Source: Rhodothermales bacterium
Lineage (GTDB): Bacteria; Bacteroidota; Rhodothermia; Rhodothermales; UBA10348
DNA: 64,000 nt
Direction: 5' to 3'
NCBI GenBank assembly: GCA_017643395.1
Contig: JAEPNP010000002.1
Span: 288,290-352,289, forward strand
Of this stretch, positions 5,472 to 20,001 are shown one piece after another. The first letter of the stretch is position 1. Every line of letters begins with the position of its first letter. Position numbers and translations under genes: made by a program. The notes under the pieces were generated by a model that worked only from the letters and a program-made list of their open reading frames with translations, did no database searches and was not told where the DNA came from.

Positions 5472-5912
5472 ATGATTCGCCCACTGGACCGTAACAGCGA
5501 CCGTGAACGCTCCCGTTGGGGCGAGCTGCGAATCGCACTCTTTCCCGATCTGGATCCTGCATTCAACGACGCAGATATGGCGGCGCTGCTTGCCAGGGAC
5601 GAGCAGGAAGTCCTTCTCGCTTTTTCGGGCGATGAGGTCGTCGGATTCGCGGAAGTCGCGCTTCGAAACCTTGTGGACGGCTGCCTGACCTCACCGGTCG
5701 GGTACCTGGAAGGGATCTACCTCGTACCGGGGCACCGAGGAAAAGGGTTGAGCCGGCAGCTGCTGGAGGCGGCCATGGGTTGGGCGCGCGCGCAAGGGTG
5801 CTCAGAGTTTGCGTCTGATTCGAGTCTGGATGAGACCGAAGCACAAGCCTGGCACCGACGGGTAGGGTTCGAGGAGACCTACAGGATTGTGCAGTTTCGC
5901 AGGGAGCTATAA
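5472..5912 (+). CDS. aac(6'): GNAT acetyltransferase resembling aminoglycoside AAC(6')
   Basis: A 146-aa single GNAT domain, the usual size for AAC(6')-I enzymes, which move an acetyl group from acetyl-CoA to the 6'-amine of aminoglycosides. The resemblance covers the whole chain: WGELRIALFPD near the start, then TSPVGYLEGIYLVPGHRGKG (substrate-side motif plus the acetyl-CoA loop R-G-K-G), then GCSEFASDSSLDE, and GFEETYRIVQFRREL at the end. I recognise these blocks from AAC(6')-I proteins such as those of Acinetobacter. Activity on drugs is not shown by sequence alone; a native substrate is possible. It is convergent with the next gene: the two stop codons lie side by side at 5907-5912, so the coding regions overlap by one stop codon. 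Confidence 0.82.
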   Translation: MIRPLDRNSDRERSRWGELRIALFPDLDPAFNDADMAALLARDEQEVLLAFSGDEVVGFAEVALRNLVDGCLTSPVGYLEGIYLVPGHRGKGLSRQLLEAAMGWARAQGCSEFASDSSLDETEAQAWHRRVGFEETYRIVQFRREL

Positions 5913-6614
5913 AGATCCTGGACCAGGATTGTTGGAGACGTCCGGCTCCAGCTCCCAACGCGGTGGATCGGCCTGACGGAGTGCCACGCGCAAGACCAAC
6001 GTCAGCGCCCATAGCGGTATCTCACGACGGAAGAGCGACTGATTTCGCAAGACCAAGGCCACCTCCTGGATAAGGCTGGCCAACGAGTGCGCGCTGGACT
6101 CTCTCAGCCTGCCCTCAAGAAACTCCAGCGGCACAGGTTCAAGACCGGCTCGCGACACCTCCCGATCCTCTACCCAAAACCCGTCCGCTCTCCGACTCAA
6201 CACCAGCTGGTCATGGACGCTCACGGCATCCTTGACTTTGGCGATGGTTCCCACAAGCTGCGGATCCTGTCCCAGGTGCAGTCTGTGGACCCCGGCGTCG
6301 GTCTCGCGGAAGACGAACCTTCGCAAGACCGTTTCAAGCATATCGTCACTCATCGACCGCCAATCCAGCTCTCCCAGGTATGCGTCGAGTCGAATCAGTC
6401 GCCCCGCAGCATCACGAACAAATGAGTCGGCCAGACATCGTACCGCGACATCCCGGTCCGACAGCTCCGGGCTTATGAACGCCCACAATCCTCGCATGCG
6501 CCTTCCTCGAATGAGTGCTATTGACATGCTGATTGAGACTCGCGCCAGGTACCCGATATGTGAGTCTGGCGGATTGGCACGGATAGCGGAGAACATCGCG
6601 GCGCGGATCGGCAC
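5907..6614 (-). CDS. Truncated member of an unrecognised ~330-aa family (copy A)
   Basis: About 235 aa from a GTG at 6614; the start is uncertain (ATG 6596 is the next choice, and the frame stays open upstream to 6821, but that part does not look like protein). It is clearly related to 7397-8392 and 20058-21056. Shared blocks are WAF near residue 44, SDRDVAVRCLADSF, LRRFVFRETDAGVHR, DPQL, PVPLEFLEGRL and VLRNQSLF. Both other copies run on for about 100 residues with a helix-turn-helix-like C-terminus; here the protein stops after LRVALRQ plus a short unrelated tail, at the stop of the acetyltransferase gene. It may be a decaying or trimmed copy, or a regulator without the DNA-binding end. Function unknown. 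Confidence 0.62.
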   Translation of the reverse strand: MPIRAAMFSAIRANPPDSHIGYLARVSISMSIALIRGRRMRGLWAFISPELSDRDVAVRCLADSFVRDAAGRLIRLDAYLGELDWRSMSDDMLETVLRRFVFRETDAGVHRLHLGQDPQLVGTIAKVKDAVSVHDQLVLSRRADGFWVEDREVSRAGLEPVPLEFLEGRLRESSAHSLASLIQEVALVLRNQSLFRREIPLWALTLVLRVALRQADPPRWELEPDVSNNPGPGSL

Positions 6615-7120
6615 CGGGACCGGCCGCGGCGATTGGGATGGCTGAGGACTCACTGGGAGGAACTGAGGGACGAACGTGGTGCAAGGTGGGGCGCGGCGAC
6701 TGTGGTGGCATCGCGCAATCACGCTGTTCTGCTGAGGAGAGCAAATAGGGCGGGCGCCGCCGGCACCCGCCCCTTGCCGTGCTGCCGCCAAACCATCGAC
6801 AGGCAAGGCTCCCCGCAGCACGACTTTCGGATGCTTAACGCATCAACACAAACAATCCGGCACCTTCCGACACGCCGCACGTTCGGGGCGGCTCCGATAC
6901 TTGCTGGCCGAATTCATCGACCGGTTCCGCGATTTCTCGGGACATCGATAGGCACTCCCAATCATCCAGTCATCGTTGCAGATGTTCGTCATGCGAACCT
7001 GCATGGCAACGGTCGAGAAGGAGGAATGGTGAATAGGGCCTGCTTTCCGAGTCATGGTCCTGACGGTCTGGTGGCGGGGAGCCTTTCAACGAGGTCCTCG
7101 CACCTGCCGAAATGTGCGGA
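6615..7120. other. Intergenic stretch without a convincing gene
   Basis: About 500 bases between the stop of the 68-aa gene (7121) and the start of the truncated family member. Open frames on both strands have poor amino-acid composition and no recognisable motif. The only structure I see is the GC-rich hairpin at 6748-6772. The stretch may hold the promoter of the truncated gene or remnants of a lost gene. Confidence 0.5.
6748..6772 (-). terminator. GC-rich hairpin, possible terminator
   Basis: Arms of 11 bases (GGGCGGGCGCC and GGCACCCGCCC, one mismatch) around a 3-base loop. Read on the minus strand it is followed by TATTTGCTC, which is only weakly T-rich. It would end transcripts coming from the 68-aa gene about 350 bases upstream. 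Confidence 0.35.
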
Positions 7121-7327
7121 CTACTTCAGCAGATCGTCTGCACCGTCGGCCGCTTCCTCGTCATCCACATTGCGGAGCTCCTCGTAGTAGCGACGCCAGA
7201 AATCCGCCGCCTCGCGCCACTCGGGGTAGCGAGCAACACGACGCGCTACCTTTGCCCTGACGTCGGCGGGCAGCCTCTCGGGATCTCTGACCCAGAGTTC
7301 CAGGATATGCGAATCCGGTTTGGGCAT
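7121..7327 (-). CDS. Small partner protein, anti-sigma-like (short form)
   Basis: 68 aa. It matches the first ~50 residues of the 176-aa protein at 19471-20001: HILELWVRDPERLP here, HIIEVWIRNPESLP there, followed by RYPEWREAADFWRRYYEEL. In both places the gene follows a member of the ~330-aa family on the same strand, here 69 bases after its stop, so the two are probably made together. The spacing of the helix, the Pro-Glu-Trp-Arg corner and the second helix recalls the N-terminal fold of anti-sigma factors (the CPECR corner), but the zinc-binding His/Cys residues are absent. That likeness is an inference from pattern only. The C-terminus is short and acidic. Confidence 0.72.
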   Translation of the reverse strand: MPKPDSHILELWVRDPERLPADVRAKVARRVARYPEWREAADFWRRYYEELRNVDDEEAADGADDLLK

Positions 7328-7396: not shown

Positions 7397-8392
7397 TCAC
7401 CCCGCCCGTTCTGCGGAGAGGTCTGCAAGGTACTCGGCTCGAAGCCGCCGCCGAAACTGACGGAGGACGTATTCAAACGTGTTGCGGTGCCGCTCGCGAT
7501 ACTCCTTCGCAGTCAAATGCAACGTGCTTGCCACTGCGGCCGAGTGACAGTAACCCCTGACAACAACGAGAAACGCCGCCTCCTGGTAGGCCTCGTACAC
7601 AGGGCGCGAGACCTTGCCTTGATACGACGGCCACATCCGGGACGAGACTGCGCGGATCACGTCGCGCACCCAGTCGGCGCTGAGGTTGCTATACGCAGTG
7701 GGCTCCTGAGCTTCCCCGGATACCGGTCGGGTCCGAGCCAGCGCATTCCGGAGCGCGATTGCCAGGCCGGTGAGGGGAACCGATGGCGCAAACAACGTCT
7801 GGTGACGCAGAACGCGCACCGTGCAGGCCAAAAGGTCAGGAGCCGTGTCTCCTTCACAGACGCACACCCGGCGCTCAAACAACTCCAGCGGGATCGGTTC
7901 AAGAGCGTTCTCAACCGGCGCCTCCGACGTCCGAATCCAGGCTACCTGGCCTTTCTTGTAAAGGACCACCTCTGCAGACTCGGCAATGGTCAGCTTCAGA
8001 TTTCGGATGAGTCGAGCCAATTGCGGGTCTCGTTCGCCGTGCATGCGATAGACGCCGTCCAGGGTCTTTCTGAACACGAACTGCCGGAAGGCTGTGAAGA
8101 CCTGCTCTTCCTCCCAGGAGCGCCAATCATGCTGGTCGAAGTAGGCAATGAACTCGGGCAAAGCCCCCGAAGCATCCCGGCGAAAAGCGTCGGCGAGACA
8201 ATCGACCGCGACATCGCGATCGCTCAATAGTGGATCTACAAAAGCCCAGGCGGCCGGGCGTCGCGACCTCACAAGCGCGAGCGACATCCTGATTGCTGTC
8301 TCCGCCACCAGCCTGACCGACCGTTGGGTCGGATCCGGCGCCATCACCGCAGCCAAATGCGGCTTCAGGTTGGACCTGCAACTCGTGGACAC
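7397..8392 (-). CDS. Unrecognised ~330-aa family, possible sigma-like regulator (copy B)
   Basis: 331 aa from a GTG at 8392, chosen because it gives the same length and N-terminal alignment as the 332-aa copy at 20058-21056. The frame is open up to an ATG at 8575, which overlaps the preceding stop as ATGA, so a 392-aa form cannot be excluded. Conserved blocks are SDRDVAVDCLADAF, FRQFVFRKTLDGVYRM, ERDPQLARLIRNLK, PIPLELFERRV, VLRHQTLF, and a C-terminal GYCHSAAV then EYRERHRNTFEYVLRQFRRR. The C-terminal block has the layout of a sigma region-4 or similar helix-turn-helix, but I cannot assign it firmly. It lies between the small HTH-like gene upstream and the 68-aa partner downstream, all on the minus strand. 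Confidence 0.75.
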   Translation of the reverse strand: MSTSCRSNLKPHLAAVMAPDPTQRSVRLVAETAIRMSLALVRSRRPAAWAFVDPLLSDRDVAVDCLADAFRRDASGALPEFIAYFDQHDWRSWEEEQVFTAFRQFVFRKTLDGVYRMHGERDPQLARLIRNLKLTIAESAEVVLYKKGQVAWIRTSEAPVENALEPIPLELFERRVCVCEGDTAPDLLACTVRVLRHQTLFAPSVPLTGLAIALRNALARTRPVSGEAQEPTAYSNLSADWVRDVIRAVSSRMWPSYQGKVSRPVYEAYQEAAFLVVVRGYCHSAAVASTLHLTAKEYRERHRNTFEYVLRQFRRRLRAEYLADLSAERAG

Positions 8393-8571
8393 AACATTTC
8401 TGGAACTGCGGTCGCCATCCCTGGCGAGGCCCGCGCCATCGCGCGTTGGAGGGCAACCGGTGAGGGGCTCACGCGCTTGAACCACCGGGACCAGTCCAGG
8501 CAGATTCACGCGCTGTTCATGAACGCCATTCCCAGGCGGCATTGCACTTCCAGTTTTCTGAGAGTGCGCAC

Positions 8572-8928
8572 TCATATGCCGTCACCACGCGACTGGACGT
8601 CCTGGAAGAACGAGCGGAATCGCCCGGCCCACTCCTCATCGAAGCTGATCATCCCTACAAAGTCCCCGGAGGCTGAGAGCTTTAAGAAGGTCTCCAGCTG
8701 GGTCCAATCCTTCAGGCGGCGGGTGAGCGTGGTGCGACCGAACGGCAAGTGTGCGCCGACAACTTCCAGCGCGTGCTCGAAAGGGAGCCCAGCTGCTCGG
8801 GCCAAACTGAAATAGGCGACCACCGTGTGAGCCAGTAGGACCCCCTCGAGATAGGCCCCGAAGCGGGACACCAACGGAGTGTCGTAGTCGATCTTCGGTG
8901 GGGACAGGTCTTGGGAATTTGAGGACAC
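8572..8928 (-). CDS. Small HTH-like protein, paralogous family copy 2
   Basis: 118 aa from a GTG at 8928. Same family as 1000-1323 and 9620-9973: KIDYDTPLV, YLEGVLLAHTVVAYF, LARAAGLPFEHAL and PFGRTTLTRRLKDW, the last resembling a helix-turn-helix. The stop codon overlaps an in-frame ATG of the next gene as ATGA at 8572-8575, which suggests the two genes are transcribed together even if the downstream protein starts later, at 8392. Function unknown; DNA binding is an inference. Confidence 0.75.
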   Translation of the reverse strand: MSSNSQDLSPPKIDYDTPLVSRFGAYLEGVLLAHTVVAYFSLARAAGLPFEHALEVVGAHLPFGRTTLTRRLKDWTQLETFLKLSASGDFVGMISFDEEWAGRFRSFFQDVQSRGDGI

Positions 8929-9084
8929 GGCGGCTGAGGTCGATGGCTGTGGTAAGAGCCTAACCCTTGCGCGACAGCCTGACGGACTCCCGCGAACCGA
9001 TTGTCCGATTTCGTCCGGATTTTTGTCAGTTTTTGTCCACGACCTGCCGGCCGACCGGGCAGGCTTCGCGACTTTCCGCGAGTA

Positions 9085-9273
9085 CTATCTGCTTGGGGCA
9101 CCGGGCAAGCCTGGCGACGCAATCGCGAACAGCGTGCCGAAGACGGCCCTGTCGAGTCCACCATATTCGGCCTGGGTCAGCTCTTCGAGGGTGCCCTCGC
9201 ACTTCAGCTCGGGGCGGCTGTATGGCTGTCTGCCGGCTTTCGTCTTCTTGTCTGAAGGTGCTGGTGGCTTCAC
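9085..9273 (-). CDS. Orphan RiPP precursor with lasso-type leader
   Basis: A 62-aa peptide from a GTG at 9273. Residues 17-32 (YSRPELKCEGTLEELT) fit the lasso-peptide leader consensus Y-x2-P-x-L-x3-G-x5-T at every fixed position. In known lasso precursors the core begins two residues after that Thr; here this would give a 28-residue core starting AEYGGLD, with Ala1 and Asp7 available for a ring, which is longer than most lasso cores. No cyclase (asparagine-synthetase-like), leader peptidase or RRE protein is visible in this window, so it is either an orphan processed elsewhere or a peptide using the same leader for another end. It lies between two copies of the small HTH-like family, same strand. 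Leader match is directly seen; maturation is inferred. Confidence 0.6.
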   Translation of the reverse strand: MKPPAPSDKKTKAGRQPYSRPELKCEGTLEELTQAEYGGLDRAVFGTLFAIASPGLPGAPSR

Positions 9274-9339
9274 GGAGTCAGTGGTGGTCGCACCACGTGG
9301 GTGGCGCCAATCGCTTCAGTGGACGACTCTCGGAACTGC

Positions 9340-9486
9340 CTAAGGTAGGGACACGGTCGGCTTCCTGCGTCTTCGTTTGTTCACCCACTGTACAACATCG
9401 CCCAAAAAAGAAGCGGAGCGCCCCCCGATGGAGCGCCCCGCCTCAGCCATGCTGTCAGCCACCTCCCCGATGGCTCCCCCCAGCAT
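9340..9486 (-). CDS. Possible 48-aa peptide with polybasic tail
   Basis: An ATG-started frame of 48 codons directly upstream of the lasso-leader peptide gene. It starts MLGGAIGEVADSMAEAGRS and has a potential amphipathic helix followed by VNKRRRRKP. Length and composition suit a small peptide, but there is no homologue I recognise and no clear ribosome binding site, so it may be chance. Confidence 0.25.
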   Translation of the reverse strand: MLGGAIGEVADSMAEAGRSIGGRSASFLGDVVQWVNKRRRRKPTVSLP

Positions 9487-9619
9487 GACGTAAAGCCTGG
9501 GGCCCGACTACTAACTCTGATGGCCCCGGCGAACAAAATGTGCGGCAACCCGCGTAGTGGGAATTACGAACTCCGGGCAACTCCGCCAACCCCTGCCAAA
9601 CCTTTGGAAGTGGCCTTTC

Positions 9620-9973
9620 TCATTTCTCCGGTTCGGCCTGTAATTCCTGCAATTCAGCCATGAAACGGCGGATTTCGTTCGGCCATCCCTCTGTGTTTGT
9701 GACAAACGGCAAGTACTGGTCCGACTCAGAAAGCTTCAGGAAAGAGTCCTGCTGGGCCCAGTCCTTCAATCTCCGATTTATCGTGGTTCGCGAGAACGGC
9801 AGATAGCGCGCCAATAGATCCAGCGAATCGTCGTACGACAACCCGGCGTTCCGCGCCAGATTGAACCACATCACCACCGTGTGCGAGATCAGGACGCCTT
9901 CGAGATAGCTCGCAAAGCGAGCCACTACCGGAGTGTCGTAGTCGATCGAGAGATCCTGCGACTTCTCTTCCAT
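9620..9973 (-). CDS. Small HTH-like protein, paralogous family copy 3
   Basis: 117 aa from an ATG at 9973. It is the third member of the family at 1000-1323 and 8572-8928: SIDYDTPVVARF, SYLEGVLISHTVVMWF, LARNAGLSYDDSLDLLAR and PFSRTTINRRLKDWAQ, then a variable end (FLKLSESDQY, EGWPNEIRRFMAEL). The central part looks like a helix-turn-helix. It is the first gene of the minus-strand accessory run 9973 to 5907. An inverted repeat (GTCAA-2-TTGAC) lies 54 bases upstream. Function unknown. Confidence 0.78.
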   Translation of the reverse strand: MEEKSQDLSIDYDTPVVARFASYLEGVLISHTVVMWFNLARNAGLSYDDSLDLLARYLPFSRTTINRRLKDWAQQDSFLKLSESDQYLPFVTNTEGWPNEIRRFMAELQELQAEPEK

Positions 9974-10026
9974 GTTGTGCCAGTCGATTGAGAAAAAACT
10001 ATCCGCTTCAACGCGCGGGCACCATA

Positions 10027-10038
10027 GTCAAAATTGAC
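10027..10038. promoter_or_regulatory. Short inverted repeat upstream of the HTH-like gene
   Basis: GTCAA-AA-TTGAC lies between the start of the small HTH-like gene (9973, minus) and the DUF3667 gene (10153, plus). It is in the right place for an operator or part of a promoter of the minus-strand gene, but it is short and the same pattern was not found before the other two family members. Confidence 0.2.
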
Positions 10039-10152
10039 CTTTTTTCGGGCGATGGGCTCCGCACCCCCGCCCCACGATCTGCCGAGAATCATTGGAACCG
10101 GTGACTTGGCACATTGCGTTCAGGCACCGCACCTGGCCCCACCCCTCCCTGC

Positions 10153-10973
10153 ATGCGTCACTGCCCCAACTGCGACACCCGCCTTGAAGGCGCATTCTGC
10201 CACACGTGCGGCCAACCGGACACCGGTCGCCTCACCATGCGCGGATTCTTTCAGTATGCGGCCAGCCGCATGTTCAGTATGGACCGAGGCTTCCTGCTCA
10301 CGCTGGTCGGCATGTTCCGGGAGCCAGGAGACGTCCCGAGGCGGTTCGTCGAGGGCAAACGAGCCTGGTACACGAATCCACTGTCCTACTGGCTGATCGC
10401 GGCAGCCGTGCAGCTCCTGGCGCTGAACCTGATCGAGGACGGCTATCTGGCCTATCTCCAGAACCAGCTTCGCTCTCAGATGGAGACCATGGGAGACATG
10501 GGAGCGGAGTCCCTGCGGGTTATGCCGAACTCTGGAACGTCGAGGATCCGGTTCCGCAACTCGCGGCCGTCATGCTGCGCTCGGTGACCGCTGCCTACTC
10601 GTACATGGGCCTGTTCTTTGCGTTCGCGATGGCCGGCTTGCTCAGCCTGTTCATGCGCAAGAACAGAGGCGGCTTCAATCTCGCCGAGCAGTTCGTCTTT
10701 TCCCTGTTTGTGATTGGCCACTGGACGCTGTTCACAGGGCTGATACTGCCCATCACGTTCCGCATATCCCCGATTCTGCACAGCACCATCGGCATCGGGG
10801 GCTATTTCGTACTGTTCGCCGTGGCCTCCCTGGGCTTTCATCAGGAGGGGGCCAAGGGCGTGCTCAAGACCTCCCTCTGCCTGGCGATCGCCTTCCTGGC
10901 CTACTTCATCATCCTGGCCATCGTCATGATGATATTCGTGATCCTCGCGACCCTGGACGCTGCCGGAGGCTGA
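10153..10973 (+). pseudogene. DUF3667-like zinc-ribbon membrane protein, frameshifted
   Basis: The first part (ATG at 10153) reads MRHCPNCDTRLEGAFCHTCG, a zinc ribbon with Cys4, 7, 16 and 19, then MDRGFLLTLVGMF and GKRAWYTNPLSYW, which are typical of DUF3667 membrane proteins. Near 10515-10525 the sense of the sequence moves to another frame: GYAELWNVEDPVPQLAAV and three or four membrane segments continue to the stop at 10973. The first frame instead runs out at 10587. One missing base (or two extra) explains both halves. It could be a real inactivating mutation or an assembly error. The last base is three bases before the start of the serine hydrolase gene, so the two were probably co-transcribed. 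The role of DUF3667 proteins is not known. Confidence 0.75.
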
Positions 10974-19470: not shown

Positions 19471-20001
19471 CTAGTCCATTCGCACTTCTACGGTCTCCTC
19501 GCCTGAAGACAAAGCGCGGACGAGCGACTCCGAAACAGCCACAGACCCGTGACCTCTTCCATCGATGGAAACCACGGAGTCGGAAACCGGAAGCAATACT
19601 TCCCTGACACGACCGGAGCCGCGCGGCGCGATAACGCGAACCAGCACCTCGGACCGATCCTCGTCAAGGAGGCATCGCACCGCCACGGACCCGTCTTCAG
19701 ACAGAAACGTGCCCAGCTCGCGGATGGCGAACTCCGATACATCTGCCGCGGCCATGGAACGGGCCGGTGGCGCAGAGGCCGCCTGGCTGCGCACCAGCTT
19801 CATCGCCGACGCAGGCGCGGTCCGGGGCTGCTCCCTGGACACGGCCCCCAGTACGCGGTAGAACTCGCGCCAGTAGTCCGCCACCTCGCGCCACTCGGGA
19901 AAGCGTTCTACGTTTCTGGAGATCTCCTCTTGCTGCGCAGCCGGCAGCGATTCAGGATTTCTGATCCAGACTTCGATGATATGTTCGTCCAGCTCCGACA
20001 T
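19471..20001 (-). CDS. Anti-sigma-like small protein (long form)
   Basis: 176 aa. The first 50 residues match the 68-aa protein at 7121-7327 (HIIEVWIRNPESLP, then RFPEWREVADYWREFYRVL) and have the outline of an anti-sigma N-terminal fold without its zinc ligands. A linker rich in Ala, Pro and Ser follows, then a beta-rich domain from about residue 90 (SVAVRCLLDEDRSEVLVRV, VLLPVSDSVVSIDG). No membrane segment is visible, so it should be soluble in the cytoplasm. It lies 56 bases after the ~330-aa family gene and four bases before the 745-aa gene. As the middle gene it is the natural candidate to link the regulator to the membrane proteins. The anti-sigma role is an inference. Confidence 0.75.
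   Translation of the reverse strand: MSELDEHIIEVWIRNPESLPAAQQEEISRNVERFPEWREVADYWREFYRVLGAVSREQPRTAPASAMKLVRSQAASAPPARSMAAADVSEFAIRELGTFLSEDGSVAVRCLLDEDRSEVLVRVIAPRGSGRVREVLLPVSDSVVSIDGRGHGSVAVSESLVRALSSGEETVEVRMD

Follow-up and report, generated by a model that had tools for sequence, protein, structure and literature searches.

A stand-alone peptide gene with a lasso-type leader in Rhodothermales: a candidate second precursor for a RiPP pathway without a recognised lasso-type cyclase

A small gene whose product begins with a lasso-type leader, standing apart from any recognisable maturation gene, raises the question of whether it encodes a genuine precursor and, if so, which enzymes act on it and what kind of product results. 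Such a gene lies at positions 9085–9273, minus strand, of the stretch of DNA analysed here (64,000 nucleotides, hereafter the window, to which coordinates given without a contig or locus name refer). The window belongs to contig C2 of a Rhodothermales genome (G000; 4.5 Mb, 21 contigs, completeness 98.43%). The initial annotation had considered either a new function for a lasso-type leader or a trans-acting enzyme set. In the reading that we consider likely, this gene is the second of two precursor genes (A) in a cyclase-less RiPP pathway with a lasso-type leader, lies apart from the other genes of that pathway, and would depend on enzymes acting in trans.

The gene starts with GTG and translates to VKPPAPSDKKTKAGRQPYSRPELKCEGTLEELTQAEYGGLDRAVFGTLFAIASPGLPGAPSR, followed by a stop codon (62 aa). 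The GTG lies 17 residues ahead of Tyr18 and aligns with the ATG of a paralogue described below; inspection by eye revealed no Shine-Dalgarno-like sequence ahead of it. Residues 1–34 (9172–9273, minus strand) form the predicted leader, the boundary being drawn by analogy with lasso leaders and from a conserved block that begins at A35 in four aligned homologues. The perfect Y-x2-P-x-L-x3-G-x5-T motif reported initially is borne out at all fixed positions, at residues 18–33 instead of 17–32, an offset of one. This predicted RRE-binding motif (Y18-x2-P21-x-L23-x3-G27-x5-T33; 9175–9222, minus strand) has its five fixed residues invariant in all four family members. Following lasso leaders, the putative cut is placed after T(-2)-Q(-1), which leaves the predicted core AEYGGLDRAVFGTLFAIASPGLPGAPSR (A35–R62; 9088–9171, minus strand), 28 residues long as had been proposed. 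Core residues A1, E2, Y3, G4, L6, G12, L14 and F15 are invariant in the alignment of the four members, Tyr3 being the sole core hydroxyl invariant in all of them and Ser19 being common to three. Asp7 is present in three of the four (both G000 copies and the homologue in genome G010), and in the member from genome G056 none of core positions 7–9 is acidic.

The motif by itself is only suggestive: a six-frame scan of the window turned up its strict form a single time, and 64-kb sequences simulated 60 times under a first-order Markov model contained 0.05 occurrences on average and 1 at most. The window protein had no match in Pfam or NCBIfam up to E = 1. When the peptide was searched against 41 genomes (its own and 40 relatives), two strong matches beyond itself were obtained, the other 21 rows having E ≥ 0.009. 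One is the paralogue in the same genome (C1:1742160–1742312; E = 2e-15), to which the window peptide is 61% identical across 51 aa. The other lies in the Rhodothermales genome G010, which belongs to the same family as G000 (C61:3880–4029; 56%, E = 1e-12). Because the paralogue adjoins a B2 gene and the G010 homologue exists, the precursor gene is regarded as real and not as a chance frame. The homologues with the same core that the initial annotation had asked for thus exist, with leader and core both conserved; their absence, which it had named as grounds for abandoning the proposal, was not what the search returned.

The B2 gene that the paralogue abuts is encoded on the opposite strand and belongs to a set of four genes on one strand, in the transcription order K, N, B1, B2, with 4-base overlaps between K and N and between B1 and B2 in the listed frames; this first precursor is consequently convergent to its enzyme genes. 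The G010 genes run A-K-N-B1-B2 on one strand, with a 4-base overlap of A and K. On C1, B2 matched NF033537 (68.8 bits, cut-off 33) and PF13471 (74.8), B1, a PqqD-type protein, matched Pfam PF05402 (50.0 bits), and N matched PF14907 (NTP_transf_5; 116.5 bits), while the family matches of the HprK-type protein K were weak and all under their cut-offs (best TIGR04352, 44.4 bits against 200). Between G000 and G010, K is 43% identical over 287 aa and N 32% identical over 340 aa, and the closest solved relative by sequence of the G010 B1 is the lasso RRE TbiB1 (E = 4e-11). The Cys and His of B2 are retained in 54/54 aligned rows, and the P-loop GK and DD pair of K in 41/41. The B2 proteins of the two genomes stand apart in a B2 tree read without support values, that of G000 on a long branch. 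With NF033521 (lasso_leader_L3; cut-off 19), the G010 precursor passes at 21.3 bits and the C1 paralogue falls below at 15.1. Downstream of the G010 cluster lie genes for a membrane-fusion protein and an RND pump; in G000 an FtsX/MacB-type permease is encoded nearby.

Searches with B1, B2, K, N and cyclase models gave no match anywhere in the window, in agreement with the earlier statement that it holds no cyclase, peptidase or RRE gene. The whole genome contains one B2, one PqqD/B1 and one strong NTP_transf_5 match, all on C1; a second NTP_transf_5 match (22.7 bits) appeared by eye to be an unrelated nucleotidyltransferase. Because the single B1, B2 and strong N all reside on C1, any maturation of the window peptide would need to take place in trans, and the trans-acting set envisaged at the outset has a candidate on another contig. 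The genome-wide search for B1, B2 and cyclase genes suggested there was successful for the first two, one of each being located on C1, and returned no lasso-type cyclase.

In the pathway that we infer, the K-N-B1-B2 set beside the first precursor would serve the window peptide in trans. B1, a discrete RRE, would bind the YxxPxL of the leader; the HPr-kinase-like K would phosphorylate a core hydroxyl, Tyr3 or Ser19 being the candidates; the NTP_transf_5 protein N would elaborate that core phosphate; and B2 would cleave after Thr(-2)-Gln(-1), before A35, to release a linear 28-mer beginning AEYGGLD. Since no lasso-forming enzyme was found with the enzyme set, the product is proposed to be linear: probably, as far as sequence can indicate, a phosphate-bearing peptide and not a lasso. 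All of these steps, together with the linear form of the product and its biological role, are predictions. The invariant Tyr3 is a pointed oddity that counts against this reading, because BsfK and LppK, in the available parts of the reports, phosphorylate Ser at core position 3 (PMC10368454, PMC13381572), and the S3Y variant is described there as not phosphorylated by LppK (PMC13381572).

The lasso product implied by the initial annotation was not supported, no lasso-type cyclase having been found in the enzyme set of either cluster (L026 and L135) or among the Asn_synthase-family proteins of G000 (three matches) and G010 (one). Both genomes are draft assemblies, with 21 contigs in G000 and about 80 in G010. 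The 442-aa protein on C4 was rejected as TilS (TIGR02432, 163.8 bits, cut-off 93.6), and the 633-aa protein on C5 as asparagine synthase (TIGR01536, 415.6 bits, cut-off 267.1), its score with the lasso cyclase model NF033535 being 183.6 against a cut-off of 525. The C5 protein carries Cys2, a residue lacking in 20/20 of the lasso-linked cyclases whose N-terminus is aligned, and falls among AsnB-type proteins in a tree of 28 cyclase-like proteins (four rows without an aligned N-terminus; support values uninspected). Two other proteins in that set also have Cys2, and the three cluster together. The third G000 match, a 531-aa protein on C3, is very distant in the tree, is weakly matched by TIGR01536 (40.3 bits against 267.1) and obtained 10.1 bits with a model built from 22 of the class's lasso-linked cyclases. 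The single G010 match (22.6 bits, 435 aa) adjoins a glycosyltransferase-like gene on a contig other than the cluster's and reached 6.2 bits against the same model.

A true lasso would require a ring between the A1 amine and D7, closed by an unlinked enzyme: the asparagine-synthase-like C5 protein, the 531-aa C3 protein or an unrecognised cyclase. The leader, B1 and B2 are all of lasso type, a lasso-type cyclase lies no more than 7 kb away at 21 of the 54 B2 loci of the class, and Asp7 is kept in G010 as well as in the two G000 copies, a retention in three of four members that a lasso would also predict. The main opening for a lasso arises because G000 and G010 each hold an Asn_synthase-related protein of unassigned and unproven function. 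Against it stand the assignment of the C5 protein to asparagine synthase, with its AsnB-type grouping and its low NF033535 score, the scores of only 10.1 and 6.2 bits of the 531-aa and 435-aa proteins, and the G056 member, whose core offers no acidic residue at positions 7–9. We consider lasso formation unlikely on this balance. A somewhat less probable account takes the window gene to be a decaying or already dead copy, left behind when a precursor was parted from its cluster, as its GTG start, its unlinked enzymes, the lack of a Shine-Dalgarno-like sequence by eye and a leader less conserved than the core (8/20 against 22/28 residues identical to the paralogue) might suggest. Over 48 aligned codons, however, the two copies differ at 14, 10 and 33 first, second and third codon positions (21 synonymous codon changes, 18 amino-acid changes), and over the 28 core codons at 6, 4 and 19. 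No ratio is reported for this pair, because the synonymous estimate is saturated. With 33/48 third positions changed, yet the frame open, the motif full and the core largely kept, the pattern speaks of long constraint and not of decay. Judged from its codons, the window copy is an old, protein-coding duplicate under purifying selection, since third positions have diverged far more than second ones and the core has been preserved.

Two of three HTH-like paralogues also flank the gene on its own strand, an arrangement that would fit a peptide serving these genes locally, for example as a signal or inhibitor, with the C1 enzymes uninvolved. The three HTH-like genes (1000–1374, 8572–8928 and 9620–9973, all minus strand; 117–124 aa; 47–53% identical to each other by BLAST) are the only ones in the genome and all fall within the window. 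Neither Pfam nor NCBIfam assigned their proteins to a family above cut-off, and 20 relatives yielded no match at E ≤ 0.001; by these comparisons the family is an orphan local expansion. The relatives without it include G010, which has the peptide system, a distribution that argues against a local role. A terminator-like hairpin of 15 pairs with a T run (9410–9444, minus strand) also separates the upstream HTH-like gene from the peptide gene, which would then form a transcription unit of its own. Since four terminator-like sites occur in 8400–10200 against 1.7 expected, the weight of this hairpin rests on its 15-pair stem, the longest of the four. The link to the flanking HTH-like genes raised by the initial annotation was thus not found, and a local role appears highly improbable.

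The preferred reading, an unlinked precursor served by a cyclase-less enzyme set, invites comparison with the linear polyphosphorylated peptides (LPPs; Popov et al., 2026, PMC13381572), which the accessible part of their description restricts to Bacillota. Their product is described there as linear and phosphorylated, its linearity having been inferred from the missing cyclase (PMC13381572). The likeness consists of a YxxP leader, a discrete RRE, an HprK-like kinase and an NTP transferase without a macrolactam cyclase (PMC13381572), and the combination of RRE, kinase and transferase without a cyclase was indeed found here. The differences, as far as that same part of the description extends, are several (PMC13381572). 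The LPP peptidase is SpI, an archaeal-type signal peptidase, whereas the Rhodothermales clusters have a lasso-type B2, and no signal peptidase was present among 10 flanking proteins (seven of L026 and three of L027; Pfam, E ≤ 1e-4). The LPP transporter is MsbA-like, and none was detected in the five genes of either cluster or in the 10 flanking proteins scanned. The LPP leader, YxxPxVLxHQxIxFETxxS, is absent from the four aligned family leaders, which read YxxPxLxxxGxxxxxT, and the LPP phosphosite is Ser3, whereas core position 3 of the present family, named AEYG after the start of its core, is Tyr in 4/4 members. The hosts are Rhodothermales instead of Bacillota, and one precursor is unlinked. 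By the features tested, the AEYG system resembles the LPPs but is not a member of them.

Two lasso hallmarks are likewise present, namely the leader motif with its penultimate Thr and, in the genome, a discrete RRE (B1) together with a transglutaminase-like peptidase (B2), one each on C1; the system nevertheless falls outside the lasso peptides because the Asn-synthetase-like macrolactam cyclase (C) was not found. The phosphorylated lassos paeninodin, pseudomycoidin and Bsf share B1, B2 and K (the latter two also N) and a leader of YxxPxL type whose penultimate residue is Thr (Ile in Bsf), but the available parts of the reports describe clusters encoding a lasso cyclase C, which was not found here (PMC8498205, PMC10368454). 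Among precursor models, NF033521 (lasso_leader_L3) and NF033528 (lasso_cyano) match the leader regions of both cluster-linked precursors; the C1 paralogue is under both cut-offs, and the window protein has no match up to E = 1. The HPr-rel-A system also pairs an HprK-type kinase with a PqqD-like protein, but its models score far below their cut-offs here (TIGR04352, 44.4 and 56.5 against 200; TIGR04353, 20.1 and 16.3 against 35). A literature search, conducted mostly without subscription papers, returned no description of such an arrangement in Rhodothermales.

A third, more distant member of the AEYG family, in G056, adjoins K and N and has the core AEYGDLTTAKYGDLFGSRTI; no B1 or B2 was matched near it in the 18.9 kb fetched, and the B2 genes of that genome lie on two other contigs. 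The pattern L-T-[K/Q]-A-E-Y-G occurred at 9 places in 8/244 class genomes, against 1 match (in G168) for the reversed-pattern control; on reading the frames, two places in G000 and one in G010 were genuine, and the other six looked like chance. A three-member profile matched 5/114 genomes and a four-member profile 10/244, strongly in G000, G010 and G056; the weak matches in G034, G057, G059, G078, G086, G093 and G190 fall in other lasso-type leaders or long frames. A draw across the phylum matched 3/394 genomes (G000, G010 and G034), and a collection of genome contigs gave one locus, taken as that of G010. Viral contigs contained 98 pattern stretches, with no relative among them, and plasmids a single weak match (E = 4e-3) within an alpha/beta hydrolase gene. 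Apparently solitary lasso leaders in G057 and G078 were rejected, kinase and lasso-type cyclase genes lying a few kb from both. Near the G056 precursor (locus L037, contig C36), an exosortase-like membrane protein was recognised by eye at about 9100–9700, plus strand.

Across the class, B2 was present in 49/244 genomes, at 54 loci: 21 with a lasso-type cyclase within 7 kb, 19 without one over flanks of 7 kb or more on each side, and 14 without one on shorter flanks. In this count, seven cyclase-like frames were set aside as AsnB-type, very distant or partial; L121 and L122, whose frames of this kind are 4.8 and 2.0 kb distant from B2 and belong to neither of the two tree groups, were counted as without, as was L096, with a cyclase 7.1 kb off, and both B2 genes of L090 were counted as with. 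B1, K and N accompany B2 at 16/54 loci, six with a lasso-type cyclase (L083, L106, L108, L117, L124 and L125) and ten without one within 7 kb (L026, L112, L115, L116, L119, L126, L127, L132, L133 and L135); six of these ten have at least 7 kb on both sides (L026, L112, L116, L119, L126 and L132). Weak K and N signals at L156 proved by eye to be an ABC-transporter ATPase and an unrelated nucleotidyltransferase.

A recognisable leader-type precursor occurs in four of the ten cyclase-less loci, L026 and L135 carrying the AEYG family. The other two, L132 (genome G084) and L133 (G083), belong to one genus and share a second family of precursors, which have YTPPQVRPLGTLPAST and YEPPRVRSLGTLPEST and agree at 53% of residues across 57 aa. 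Their genes (L132, 8029–8271, and L133, 1897–2106, both plus strand) are located just ahead of K or overlap its open frame. No strict-motif frame was present within 1.5 kb of the gene set in L112, L115, L116, L119, L126 or L127, five of which belong to one genus; L115 and L127 have short flanks. At a further locus, L038 (G034 C1:611000–630900), a B1, a YxxP leader peptide with the core ASLDLQNAETLWGWKWKHGGGGHGVS and a K stand in a row at about 8138–9881, and no B2, N or cyclase was matched in the 19.9 kb fetched.

These results indicate that a leader of lasso type does not necessarily imply a lasso product, recognition, cleavage, kinase and nucleotidyltransferase genes being found together here without a lasso-type cyclase. 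The cyclase-less gene set is now seen outside Bacillota, the group in which the accessible part of the LPP report places linear phosphorylated peptides (PMC13381572); the present analysis contributes a precursor family defined together with its enzymes, a B2 in a cyclase-less cluster and a stand-alone precursor kept over a long time. A precursor can persist alone over long evolution while its enzymes reside elsewhere in the genome, and cluster-based RiPP mining would miss the window precursor, because it stands apart from them. With ten of the 16 B1-K-N-B2 loci lacking a lasso-type cyclase within 7 kb, the arrangement may be wider in the class. Tentatively, and with more doubt than confidence, one may imagine in Rhodothermia a distinct class of linear RiPPs with phosphate modifications, produced via the lasso recognition and cleavage proteins B1/B2 without a cyclase and comprising at least two precursor families (AEYG, and YxxPxVRxLGTLPxST in G083 and G084), in which the AEYG kinase would act on the invariant Tyr3 or on Ser19 and a lone precursor under separate control would share one enzyme set in trans.

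Elsewhere in the window, the proteins encoded at 5907–6821 and 7397–8575 (minus strand) are alike by eye, with no family match above cut-off, and a 68-aa protein at 7121–7327 resembles, also by eye, the start of the protein at 19471–20001.
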